Assembly (NCBI GenBank): GCA_030628225.1
Contig: DAOVRJ010000116.1
Coordinates: 1-7,605 of the forward strand
From: Candidatus Zixiibacteriota bacterium
GTDB lineage: Bacteria > SM23-81
Direction: 5' to 3'
DNA: 7,605 bases
In this document: one piece after another, positions 3,917 to 7,350 of the stretch
How positions within the stretch are numbered: position 1 is the stretch's first letter
Layout of the letters: each line of letters opens with the position of its first letter
Program-made: the position numbers and the translations under genes
Notes under the pieces: model-generated
The model's input: the letters and a program-made list of their open reading frames with translations, nothing else
The model's database searches: none
Told to the model about the DNA's origin: nothing

Positions 3917-4735
3917 ATGTCTACAAAATTTGAAGAACTGAAGAAAATCATGCGCCGCTTACGCGGCCCAAACGGTTGTCCCTGGGACAGAGAGCAAACC
4001 CACGCGAGTCTCAGACCTTATCTCATCGAAGAAACCTACGAGGTTCTGGAGGTCATCGACGGTGCGGATGATCTAAAACTGGCCGAGGAACTGGGCGATC
4101 TTTTACTGCAAATCATCTTCCACAGCCAAATCGCAGAGGAGGAGGGCCGTTTCGATATCGAGGACGTCATCGGCGGAATTATCGAGAAGCTGAAACGCAG
4201 ACATCCCCACGTTTTCGGCGATAAAAAAGCGATAAATACCCGCCAGGTGCTCATCGGCTGGGAAAAGGCCAAACAGGAAGAGACCCAGAGAAAGGGCGCG
4301 TCAATTCTGGATGGAGTTCCCAGAGAGCTTCCCGCCCTGCTGAAGGCCCATCGTGTACAGGAGAAAGTCTCCCGAGTGGGCTTCGACTGGGAACATATCG
4401 ATCAGGTGTTCGCCAAAGTGGAAGAAGAGCTGGCCGAGTTTCGCGCCGCCTACCAGAATCATCAGAAAGAACAGGTGGAGGAGGAGCTGGGGGATATCTT
4501 CTTCGCCCTGGTTAACCTGTCTCGTTATCTGGAAACCAGTCCGGAAGACGCTCTGCGCCAGACCATCAACAAATTTGTCTCCCGGTTCAAATATGTGGAG
4601 TCGGCCCTTCAGAATAAGGGATTAGATCCGAGAGAGGTGGGGCTCGAGGCCATGGACAAACTGTGGGATGAGGCAAAATCTCTGGAATCGAGAAAAAATC
4701 CGCCCGATGAAGATAAATCTCCGGGAGCTTCGTAA
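3917..4735 (+). CDS. mazG: Nucleoside triphosphate pyrophosphohydrolase MazG
   Basis: A 272-residue two-domain MazG, close to the roughly 263 residues of the E. coli enzyme. The family hydrolyses (d)NTPs to monophosphate and pyrophosphate, cleans aberrant nucleotides from the pool, and in E. coli lowers ppGpp during starvation. The N-terminal all-alpha domain shows the typical opening LRGPNGCPWDREQTH (15-29), the metal-binding EETYE (38-42) and EELGD (57-61), and RRHPHVFG (94-101). After a linker with GVPRELPALLKAHRVQEK (133-150) comes the C-terminal catalytic domain with EELAE (170-174) and EELGD (189-193), the paired EExxE/EExxD acidic sites that bind magnesium. The tail after about residue 258 is short, charged and probably disordered. 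The gene is divergent from the diguanylate cyclase, has its own sigma-70 promoter, and appears monocistronic, since the next gene has a separate sigma-54 promoter. Confidence 0.96.
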   Translation: MSTKFEELKKIMRRLRGPNGCPWDREQTHASLRPYLIEETYEVLEVIDGADDLKLAEELGDLLLQIIFHSQIAEEEGRFDIEDVIGGIIEKLKRRHPHVFGDKKAINTRQVLIGWEKAKQEETQRKGASILDGVPRELPALLKAHRVQEKVSRVGFDWEHIDQVFAKVEEELAEFRAAYQNHQKEQVEEELGDIFFALVNLSRYLETSPEDALRQTINKFVSRFKYVESALQNKGLDPREVGLEAMDKLWDEAKSLESRKNPPDEDKSPGAS

Positions 4736-4782
4736 GCACGATTTCATCTATGGTACATGGACCGGGCCGGGCACCTCATATA

Positions 4783-4796
4783 TGCAATTCATTGCA
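4783..4796. promoter_or_regulatory. Palindromic TGCAAT-TC-ATTGCA site, candidate enhancer (upstream activating) site A
   Basis: A perfect inverted repeat with 6-bp arms and a 2-base centre in the non-coding region before the PEP-CTERM gene. Its centre is about 155 bases upstream of the start site predicted for the sigma-54 promoter at 4919-4934, within the usual range for enhancer-binding activators. A further ATTGCAT half-site lies at 4849-4855. A related palindrome precedes the second sigma-54 gene. The binding role is inferred. Confidence 0.45.
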
Positions 4797-4918
4797 ACTT
4801 CTGCGGACCGGTTTCCCCGCTCAGTCAGCAGTGCAGTGCGGCCTACCGATTGCATAACCTCCTACGATAACAGAATGATACACAGAACCCTCTCCGGGAA
4901 CGCTGCGCCTGCTGTTCT

Positions 4919-4934
4919 TGGCATGAACCTTGCG
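4919..4934 (+). promoter_or_regulatory. Sigma-54 (-24/-12) promoter of the PEP-CTERM gene
   Basis: TGGCATGAACCTTGCG: invariant GG (4920-4921) and GC (4932-4933) are separated by exactly 10 bases, with the preferred TGGCA and TTGC blocks complete. The predicted start site is near 4945, giving a leader of about 80 bases before the ATG at 5026. The same pattern occurs before the DksA-like gene. Confidence 0.75.
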
Positions 4935-5010
4935 TTGAAGAAAGACAAACCTTGGATTTCCTGGAGAATGATAATCGGGATACCAGTTTTCTTTTAGATT
5001 ATTGATGAAA

Positions 5011-5016
5011 GGAGGG
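5011..5016 (+). promoter_or_regulatory. Ribosome binding site of the PEP-CTERM gene
   Basis: GGAGGG lies nine bases before the ATG at 5026. It falls inside the frame if translation began at the TTG (5002) or ATG (5005), so those upstream starts are unlikely. The ATG at 5026 also gives a clean signal peptide. Confidence 0.75.
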
Positions 5017-5025
5017 CTTAGCTCT

Positions 5026-5745
5026 ATGAGATATCCACTCTTTTTCCTCATCCTAGTTGCCCTGATGGGCCTGGCCACGGCGGACGCATACGTGATCAAC
5101 GGCCTGATGGACGATTGGGGCGTGCAACCGCACATTCAGTGGGTTCCATCCATGAGTTCGGCCAACTGGATTGAGGAGGACAATTGGGGCAGCGGCCATT
5201 CCAATTTCCCCAGCGGCGGCGAGATCTATGACGCGGAGGCCCTTTACTGCGACATCGTCGGGAACACAGCTTACATTGCCCTGGTCACCTCCTTCCCCAA
5301 CATGGGCTACGATTATTCCCTCCCCGGCGACTTCGGCATCGATCTCGACCGGGACGGTATCTACGAATACGGCCTCAAAACCACGGGAAGCCACCAAGGC
5401 GGACTGTACGCCAATCCCATCTGGACCACGGCCTCCACTTACTCCCTGTCCAGCCCCGCCCGGATCATCGGCGGCACACTGCTGGACATACAGCCTTTGG
5501 TATACAATCAGAGCAGTATCGTGGAGAACGGCTTTCCCACTTACATCATCGAGGGAAGTTTCAACTGGGCCAGCCTGGGAACCCCTGTACAACCATTTAA
5601 TCTACACTGGACCATGAGCTGCGGGAACGACATGCTGGACTTGACAGTGCAACCCGTTCCAGAGCCTGGCACTCTTTTTCTATTGGGCCCAGGGCTCGCT
5701 GCCCTGTGGGGCTTTTCGCGAAGGAGAAAAGGGACGAAAAAATAA
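5026..5745 (+). CDS. PEP-CTERM sorting domain protein (exported, exosortase-processed surface protein)
   Basis: A 239-residue exported protein of unknown specific role. Residues 1-21 form a signal peptide (hydrophobic 5-17, ending ATADA). The C-terminus is a textbook PEP-CTERM signal: VPEP (211-214), a hydrophobic span (215-230) and a basic tail, SRRRKGTKK (231-239). Such proteins are cut and transferred by an exosortase at the inner membrane and end up on the surface or in exopolysaccharide. The mature region is rich in aromatic, Gly and Asp residues. It carries GDFGIDLDRDGIYEYG (101-116), an acidic loop that could bind calcium (inference), and HWTMSCGND (194-202) just before the sorting signal, a motif I recall from other PEP-CTERM proteins. 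The only cysteines in the mature part are Cys75 and Cys199, a possible disulfide. It is a single gene between its own sigma-54 promoter and a strong hairpin. No exosortase is in the window, so sorting depends on a locus elsewhere. Confidence 0.88.
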   Translation: MRYPLFFLILVALMGLATADAYVINGLMDDWGVQPHIQWVPSMSSANWIEEDNWGSGHSNFPSGGEIYDAEALYCDIVGNTAYIALVTSFPNMGYDYSLPGDFGIDLDRDGIYEYGLKTTGSHQGGLYANPIWTTASTYSLSSPARIIGGTLLDIQPLVYNQSSIVENGFPTYIIEGSFNWASLGTPVQPFNLHWTMSCGNDMLDLTVQPVPEPGTLFLLGPGLAALWGFSRRRKGTKK

Positions 5746-5764
5746 ATCTTTGCCGGTCAGGGAG

Positions 5765-5800
5765 ATAGAAAACGGGGAGATGATTCTCCCCGTTTTCTAT
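5765..5800 (+). terminator. Perfect 16-bp inverted repeat after the PEP-CTERM gene, probable terminator
   Basis: Left arm 5765-5780 and right arm 5785-5800 pair over all 16 bases around a TGAT loop, 19 bases after the stop codon. There is no T-run after the stem; the T-rich stretch is inside the right arm (CGTTTTC). It could end transcription by a non-canonical route, act in both directions, or protect the mRNA 3' end. Confidence 0.65.
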
Positions 5801-5811
5801 AGCTGCTAGTA

Positions 5812-5825
5812 TGCAATCATTTGCA
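5812..5825. promoter_or_regulatory. TGCAA-TCAT-TTGCA palindrome, candidate enhancer site B
   Basis: An inverted repeat with 5-bp arms resembling site A at 4783-4796; the 20 bases at 5810-5829 match 4781-4800 at 15 positions. A further ATGCAAT lies at 5842-5848. Its centre is about 235 bases before the start site predicted for the sigma-54 promoter of the DksA-like gene. It is followed by CTTTTT, so a weak intrinsic terminator backing up the hairpin at 5765-5800 is an alternative reading. Confidence 0.4.
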
Positions 5826-5902
5826 CTTTTTGTGTCTGCCCATGCAATTTGGGGCAAGCATTTTATCTCTTCCACAAAACCAGCTCTTGGAGAACTTGTC
5901 CC

Positions 5903-5981
5903 CATACATCTTCCGTATGAGCAGCAAGAACCCGTAGATGGGCTATTCTGGCCCGTCGGGGCCTAACCAGCCCCCTTGCTG
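5903..5981 (+). other. GC-rich stretch with nested inverted repeats (possible structured RNA or cruciform)
   Basis: No gene is seen between 5850 and 6027. Within it, CATAC (5903-5907) pairs with GTATG (5915-5919). CAGCAAG (5922-5928) pairs with CTTGCTG (5975-5981), enclosing GGGC/GCCC (5940-5943 with 5951-5954) and GGGGC/GCCCC (5958-5962 with 5970-5974), which would make a three-way junction. A competing hairpin GGCCC/GGGCC (5950-5954 with 5959-5963) excludes both inner stems. It matches no riboswitch or RNA family I recognise and lies upstream of the predicted sigma-54 start, so it would need its own transcript to act as RNA. Confidence 0.3.
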
Positions 5982-6027
5982 AGCGAAACATCCGATAATG
6001 AAAAGAAGCTGCAAAAAGAAGAAAGAA

Positions 6028-6043
6028 TGGCATAACTTTTGCG
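6028..6043 (+). promoter_or_regulatory. Sigma-54 (-24/-12) promoter of the DksA/TraR-family gene
   Basis: TGGCATAACTTTTGCG: invariant GG (6029-6030) and GC (6041-6042) are exactly 10 bases apart, with complete TGGCA and TTGC blocks. The start site would be near 6054, leaving a leader of about 64 bases. It matches the PEP-CTERM gene promoter at 13 of 16 positions. Confidence 0.7.
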
Positions 6044-6103
6044 AGTAATTATCACCGTTTACGGCTGATTACGGGGACTATACGGGGACCGATCATTCTG
6101 AAC

Positions 6104-6108
6104 GGAGG
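6104..6108 (+). promoter_or_regulatory. Ribosome binding site of the DksA/TraR-family gene
   Basis: GGAGG followed by nine bases and then TTG at 6118. It supports a TTG start; the next in-frame ATG, codon 16, has no comparable site and would remove the first helix. Confidence 0.7.
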
Positions 6109-6117
6109 CGATTTCTC

Positions 6118-6522
6118 TTGCGAAAACGAGACCTGCACGTTATCGAGCGGAATCTGTTGAAGATGCGCGGGCGCCTGCAGGAAAATCTTCATCGCGTAGA
6201 AAAGGAAAACATCCGCGTTCCACTCCAGGTGGCCAACGGAGATCCAGGGGGATCCCAGTTCCACATGGCCGATCTTGCCTCGGACCACTATGAGCGGGAG
6301 AACTCCCTGCAGTTATATCTCTGTGAGCAGAATCTTCTGAAAGCCATCGATGAGGCCATAGGTCGCATTAAAAAAGGCACATACGGCATTTGCTCCGCCT
6401 GTTCCAGCCCCATCAACCCCCGCAGGCTCCTGGCGGTGCCCAACACCAAGCTGTGTATCAACTGTCAGAAGGAAAAGGAAAGAAACGGGTTCGCTTCTAA
6501 AACCCACAAGACCCACGGATAA
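6118..6522 (+). CDS. DksA/TraR-family C4-type zinc-finger regulator
   Basis: A 134-residue protein with the two-part layout of the family: a charged helical region (about 1-88) likely to form the coiled-coil hairpin that enters the RNA polymerase secondary channel, then a zinc finger CSAC (92-95), 17 residues, and CINC (113-116). GTYGICSACSSPINPRRLLAVP (87-108, written here only by its ends: GTYGIC to LLAVP) is characteristic. The turn between the helices has ADLASDHYERE (51-61), with acidic residues near where DksA carries its functional Asp pair, closer to the shorter YteA-like or zinc-finger members than to E. coli DksA (151 residues). It probably tunes transcription initiation, perhaps with ppGpp; whether it replaces DksA or is a specialised paralogue is unclear. 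It starts with TTG, is apparently monocistronic, and has its own sigma-54 promoter, unusual for a housekeeping dksA. It converges with the NUDIX gene. Confidence 0.88.
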   Translation: MRKRDLHVIERNLLKMRGRLQENLHRVEKENIRVPLQVANGDPGGSQFHMADLASDHYERENSLQLYLCEQNLLKAIDEAIGRIKKGTYGICSACSSPINPRRLLAVPNTKLCINCQKEKERNGFASKTHKTHG

Positions 6523-7107: not shown

Positions 7108-7350
7108 ATGAAACCGGATGCTGGATACTGGATACTGGATTCTGGATACTGGCTAAAGACTGGGACTGGAGACTCGAGATTCGAGAAAAGAAAGACGGAT
7201 TCTGGGTGCTTGTTAAGAACTAAACCTCGGAAAATGCAGAGTCAACCTGGCATATACTCAGAATCGAGCCTTTCACTTACCAGGATCTAGCATTCTGTTT
7301 TTCATCCAGAATCTAGCATCTAGAATCCAGGATCCAGCATCGAGTTTCAT
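7108..7350. repeat. Imperfect inverted repeat of degenerate CTGGATN heptamers, 243 bp
   Basis: The left arm begins ATGAAAC (7108-7114) and runs as 7-base units: CCGGATG, CTGGATA, CTGGATA, CTGGATT, CTGGATA, CTGGCTA (7114-7155). The right arm, read on the opposite strand from 7350, begins ATGAAAC and gives CTCGATG, CTGGATC, CTGGATT, CTAGATG, CTAGATT, CTGGATG (down to 7303). The arms are in register with scattered mismatches. The centre holds smaller pieces, including CTCGA-GAT-TCGAG (7173-7185) and another partial unit, CTAGATCCTGG, on the minus strand near 7281-7291. There is no transposase and no obvious target duplication. It could be a small non-autonomous mobile element, a dispersed intergenic repeat or a folded RNA. 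An open frame across it is a by-product of the repeat. Confidence 0.7.

Follow-up and report, generated by a model that had tools for sequence, protein, structure and literature searches.

Predicted sigma-54 promoters with a shared upstream palindrome before a PEP-CTERM gene and an adjacent DksA/TraR-family gene in a Candidatus Zixiibacteriota genome

We analysed a window of 7,605 nucleotides (the whole stretch of DNA under study), which is contig C278 of a draft genome assembly (G000; 2.34 Mb, 306 contigs, 92% complete). One genome, candidate division Zixibacteria bacterium SM23_81 (G001), is the only close relative known and served for comparison; it has in common with the window the gene order NfeD, aldehyde dehydrogenase, GGDEF, MazG, PEP-CTERM, DksA-like, NUDIX. 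The features between the MazG and NUDIX genes are listed in Table 1. An Rfam search of window positions 4700-6200 gave no match.

Table 1. Genes and predicted regulatory features of the window.
Feature	Position	Strand	Details
Putative upstream activator site 1	4783..4796	.	TGCAATTCATTGCA, 136 bp upstream of promoter 1
ATTGCATAA block	4849..4857	+	About 70 bp upstream of promoter 1
Predicted sigma-54 -24/-12 promoter 1, of PEP-CTERM gene	4919..4934	+	TGGCATGAACCTTGCG, perfect consensus match
PEP-CTERM protein gene	5026..5745	+	239 aa; signal peptide-like N terminus; C-terminal PVPEPGTLFLLG...RRRK
Terminator-type hairpin between the two genes	5765..5800	+	16-bp perfect stem
Putative upstream activator site 2	5812..5825	.	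TGCAATCATTTGCA, 216 bp upstream of promoter 2
Predicted sigma-54 -24/-12 promoter 2, of DksA-like gene	6028..6043	+	TGGCATAACTTTTGCG, perfect consensus match
DksA/TraR C4 zinc-finger protein gene	6118..6522	+	134 aa; TTG start conserved in G001

The PEP-CTERM protein scores above cut-off with PF07589 (24.9 bits, cut-off 20.7) and with TIGR02595, the two models by which its C-terminal PEP-TM-Arg tail was recognized; its N-terminal signal was judged by eye only. It is 72% identical to its G001 counterpart. The initial annotation had called the next gene DksA-like. The family assignment holds (PF01258, zf-dskA_traR, 44.3 bits, cut-off 24.9), but the protein is not a canonical DksA, reaching 58.1 bits against the TIGR02420 cut-off of 115.5. 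It resembles the YteA and DksA-type proteins (TIGR02890, TIGR02420) in its coiled coil, its C4 zinc finger and its HMAD-L-A tip (HMADLA in the alignment), and YteA is its best model at 79.9 bits, yet it stays below both cut-offs. On these scores, we assign the 134-aa protein to the DksA/TraR superfamily as a YteA-like member. A scan of the genome for its relatives returned none, with exact peptide patterns that were too strict. The 73-nt stretch that contains the hairpin has a minimum free energy of -33 kcal/mol (z -6.8). We found no counterpart of this hairpin between the two genes in G001, so that read-through may join them there.

Both proposed promoters proved to have the TGGCA block, the exact GG-N10-GC spacing and the TTGCG block, although they agree at 12 of 16 positions rather than the 13 first claimed. 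We scanned for the consensus TGGCAYR-N4-TTGC (GG-N10-GC), with the reversed pattern as control. The genome-wide scan that had been proposed gave 27 perfect matches in G000, compared to 2 for the control. At this rate the 7.6-kb window is expected to contain 0.09 perfect sites; it contains two, namely these. Allowing up to two mismatches gives 7 matches in the window against 6.3 expected by chance, so only a perfect match is informative here. Both sites are intergenic and on the coding strand; the distance from site end to start codon is 91 bp for the PEP-CTERM gene (ATG, 5026) and 74 bp for the DksA-like gene (TTG, 6118). A search of the coding strand upstream of both genes gave no sigma-70-like promoter. 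The initial annotation had made its proposal depend on RpoN and enhancer-binding proteins, and G000 encodes both: RpoN is above cut-off (TIGR02395, 444 bits) and there are eight strong enhancer-binding-protein domains. Taken as predictions, promoter 1 is very probably a real sigma-54 promoter, and promoter 2 is probably one too.

Sigma-54 sites and an upstream motif before proteobacterial PEP-CTERM genes were described in 2006, when PrsK, PrsR and PrsT were named (Haft 2006, PMC1569441). RpoN dependence of a PEP-CTERM gene has since been proven by experiment in Aquincola (PMC9850573), and a response regulator binds upstream of PEP-CTERM genes in Desulfovibrio vulgaris (PMC3333781). RpoN control of PEP-CTERM genes in some bacteria, which the initial annotation mentioned, was thus already in print (PMC1569441, PMC9850573). 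Among 62 homologues of the window protein in GTDB genomes across phyla, 47 have a sigma-54 site of at least 9/11 upstream, compared to 0 and 5 for the reversed and reverse-complement controls. The PEP-CTERM promoter therefore belongs to the ordinary class described in 2006 (PMC1569441). Only Proteobacteria shared the motif pair in that survey (PMC1569441), which reflects the genomes then on hand. G000 encodes one exosortase, above the cut-off of TIGR03109 (exosortase A).

The initial annotation pointed to PrsK/PrsR as the activator. Both proteins are present in G000: PrsR, on contig C205, scores 579.9 bits with TIGR02915 (cut-off 502.6), and its gene is preceded by those for PrsK (TIGR02916, 396.1 bits, cut-off 300) and a TPR protein with a weak match to PrsT. 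In 42 upstream stretches of homologues, TGT-N8-TTTACA occurs in 20 (0.15 in shuffles) and TGTCGR-N8-ACA in 11 (0 in shuffles). We take this element to be the probable PrsR box, presumably Haft motif 1. Paired boxes (TGTCGR-N7-DACA), 66-69 bp apart, precede the PEP-CTERM genes on contigs C47 and C169, where one C169 copy has one mismatch, and also the GGDEF-like gene 3' of prsR in both G000 and G001. An exact box also precedes the C95 PEP-CTERM gene, whose sigma-54 site is weaker; the C44 gene lacks both. Because the reversed control of this pattern is not rare across the genome, a lone box is weak evidence, and pairing and placement carry the argument; TGTCGG counted alone showed no enrichment. 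The proteobacterial PrsR-type box reaches Zixibacteria-like genomes, where four or five promoters have it in pairs spaced 66-69 bp. The window contig has no TGTCGR-N7-DACA. Upstream of its PEP-CTERM gene there is none within 2 mismatches, and upstream of the DksA-like gene only one chance-level 2-mismatch match, at -277. PrsK/PrsR is therefore not supported as the activator at this locus: the window lacks the box that precedes PEP-CTERM genes on C47, C169 and C95.

The window promoters have a different sequence in common. The palindrome TGCAAW-N2-WTTGCA (TGCAAWNNWTTGCA) occurs at just two places in the 2.34-Mb genome, one upstream of each promoter. The less strict form, TGCAA-N4-TTGCA, has four genomic sites. 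The third precedes the C47 promoter by 396 bp, and three of the four stand no more than 400 bp before one of the 27 sigma-54 sites (binomial 4e-7, a post hoc value because the palindrome was first spotted by eye and tested afterwards). When all 5-bp gapped palindromes were scanned, two kinds recurred in at least two of the 27 upstream regions, and TGCAA-N4-TTGCA was the better of them. Measured within contigs, its enrichment is weak (p 0.008, uncorrected for the 2338 families). We set aside a general scan for 4+4 bp dyads, because AT-rich intergenic DNA set against a mostly coding background gave spurious matches. In G002, a genome of the same phylum, one of three palindromes precedes by 141 bp a sigma-54 site that stands before the gene of a 226-aa protein. 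The ATTGCATAA block also precedes the C47 PEP-CTERM promoter, at -61, and G001 has ATTACATAA at -68.

Loss of the promoter blocks in close relatives had been named as the outcome that would speak against the proposal, and the two promoters differ in this respect. Before the G001 PEP-CTERM gene, the promoter, a palindrome (TGCAAAATGTTGCA, at -134) and the 134-bp spacing are kept in diverged DNA. The DksA-like promoter is absent: the 344 bp before the G001 gene contain no GG-N10-GC, and the position aligned to site 2 has a degenerate palindrome, TGCAAATTGGTTCA. None of 28 distinct distant DksA-type homologue loci (G001 apart) is preceded by a sigma-54 site better than 9/11, and we found no sigma-54 control of YteA/DksA-type genes among the relatives examined. 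Among 79 PEP-CTERM loci, only SM23_81 has a DksA-like gene within 3 kb. As far as one relative can show, the predicted DksA-like promoter is lineage-specific.

As each gene has a convincing sigma-54 promoter with the same rare palindrome upstream, the two are probably switched on together, though probably not via PrsR. The initial annotation had suggested that the DksA-like gene belongs to the surface/exopolysaccharide regulon; the shared palindrome suggests co-control, while the missing box tells against the PrsR route. In the explanation we favour, sigma-54 RNA polymerase would wait at both -24/-12 promoters, and one enhancer-binding protein other than PrsR would bind TGCAA-N4-TTGCA, the putative activator site, as a dimer. 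This single reader would loop across 136 and 216 bp and open both promoters. The PEP-CTERM surface protein and the YteA-like protein would then be made together, from separate transcripts split by the terminator hairpin, and the latter might act on RNA polymerase within the surface response. The promoters, palindromes, hairpin, RpoN, alternative enhancer-binding proteins and absence of the PrsR box are the parts of this model read directly from the DNA; from them we infer that a second enhancer-binding protein besides PrsR acts on the window promoters. We give the full model, two genuine sigma-54 promoters sharing one non-PrsR enhancer-binding protein, an even chance. It would mean that some sigma-54-driven PEP-CTERM genes answer to an activator other than PrsR, and that the surface/exopolysaccharide programme has a dedicated DksA/TraR-family regulator. 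More speculatively, there might be a PEP-CTERM sub-regulon in which a non-PrsR activator uses TGCAA-N4-TTGCA for a surface protein and its own RNA-polymerase secondary-channel regulator, reshaping transcription at large.

PrsK/PrsR could instead drive both promoters through sites unlike the usual box. G000 has intact prsT-like, prsK and prsR genes, the window protein is 32-36% identical to PEP-CTERM proteins encoded beside prsR in another genome (G003), and most sigma-54 promoters of its family are likely PrsR targets. With the box missing from the window contig and present before the C47, C169 and C95 genes, we consider this improbable. It is somewhat less improbable, but still unlikely, that only the PEP-CTERM promoter functions and that the site before the DksA-like gene matches by chance or is decaying, this gene being read from an unrecognized promoter. 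DksA-type genes are usually under housekeeping control, and neither G001 (no GG-N10-GC in 344 bp) nor the 28 distant homologues (no site of at least 10/11) have a comparable site. Yet promoter 2 is a perfect 15-bp consensus, which the reversed control reached only twice genome-wide, it has one of the two exact palindromes upstream, and no sigma-70-like alternative was found.

A further possibility, which we hold only tentatively, concerns history: the DksA-like gene may ancestrally have been read through from the PEP-CTERM sigma-54 promoter, and the window lineage may have acquired a terminator and a promoter copy of its own while keeping the coupling in another way. The kept gene order, the lack of terminator or promoter between the genes in G001, and the half-conserved palindrome block that persists there all fit. 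Against this, a single comparison does not fix the direction of change, and 344 nt is a long gap for read-through. Such a history is compatible with the shared-activator explanation as well, and alters what promoter 2 means.

The locus resembles the 2006 regulon (PMC1569441): a long non-coding stretch containing a -24/-12 site leads to a lone PEP-CTERM gene, and the genome has exosortase, PrsK, PrsR and TGTCG-type boxes at other PEP-CTERM genes. It differs in that the box is missing before the window gene, which has TGCAA-N4-TTGCA at 136 bp, compared to a mean spacer of 63 nt in the 2006 set, and in that a DksA/TraR-family gene with its own predicted sigma-54 promoter comes next. The RpoN1-dependent pepA of Aquincola tertiaricarbonis (PMC9850573) likewise has a -24/-12 promoter and a terminator 3' of the gene. 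Its RpoN dependence was demonstrated experimentally, and its next gene is prsT, reportedly unaffected by rpoN1, with no DksA-type gene (PMC9850573). In the DVUA0057 regulon of Desulfovibrio vulgaris, a sigma-54 exopolysaccharide response regulator similarly binds upstream of PEP-CTERM genes; the two papers on it do not mention DksA (PMC3333781, PMC4641369). Among the papers listed in the literature search (25 of 99), none treats DksA and PEP-CTERM together.

Candidate readers of the palindrome were judged from the promoters adjoining each enhancer-binding protein, with motifs mostly read by eye. Five proteins appear unlikely, as other motifs lie nearby: ATTGC-N6-GCAAT for C232 (seen in G001), another motif before hsp20 for C81, a TGTAC-type motif for C4, TGTTCAAATYCTRTACA for C173 and TGGCAACTTGCCA for the PilR-like C241 protein. 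The C34 and C296 proteins remain candidates.

A sigma-54 promoter in L068 (1825-1839, minus) adjoins a PAS-type enhancer-binding protein gene; its counterparts G001:C62 and C87 (L182, L190) have ATTGC-N6-GCAAT repeats at the promoter of the PAS-type gene, which contain the half-site of the window palindrome in opposite order. L070 (2758-7866, minus) encodes a 1702-aa protein with, largely by eye, a Ser/Thr kinase-like N terminus, TPR-like and GAF-like parts, a sigma-54 enhancer-binding domain and a Fis-like C terminus. A second gene there (2-379, minus), downstream of a sigma-54 site, has a partial enhancer-binding domain, and its counterpart near 15500 of G001:C79 (L186) is 240 aa long, seemingly without a DNA-binding helix-turn-helix.

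The PrsR-type box pairs lie at C205 10605-10690, C47 5787-5871 and C169 7779-7861 in G000 and at C9 114949-115032 in G001. In each pair the nearer box begins 137-148 bp before the sigma-54 site, which makes for a two-site enhancer of striking regularity. The short GGDEF-like gene (about 156-199 aa) lies 3' of prsR in four genomes of the phylum (L067 10986-11585; G001:C9; G002:C77; G003:C171); in G000 and G001 it has a sigma-54 promoter of its own. Finally, window positions 7108-7345 hold intergenic near-repeat runs (ATACTGGATACTGG / ATCCAGGATCCAGCATC) that recur in non-coding DNA of G000, and the same type is also found upstream of the C34 promoter (L050).
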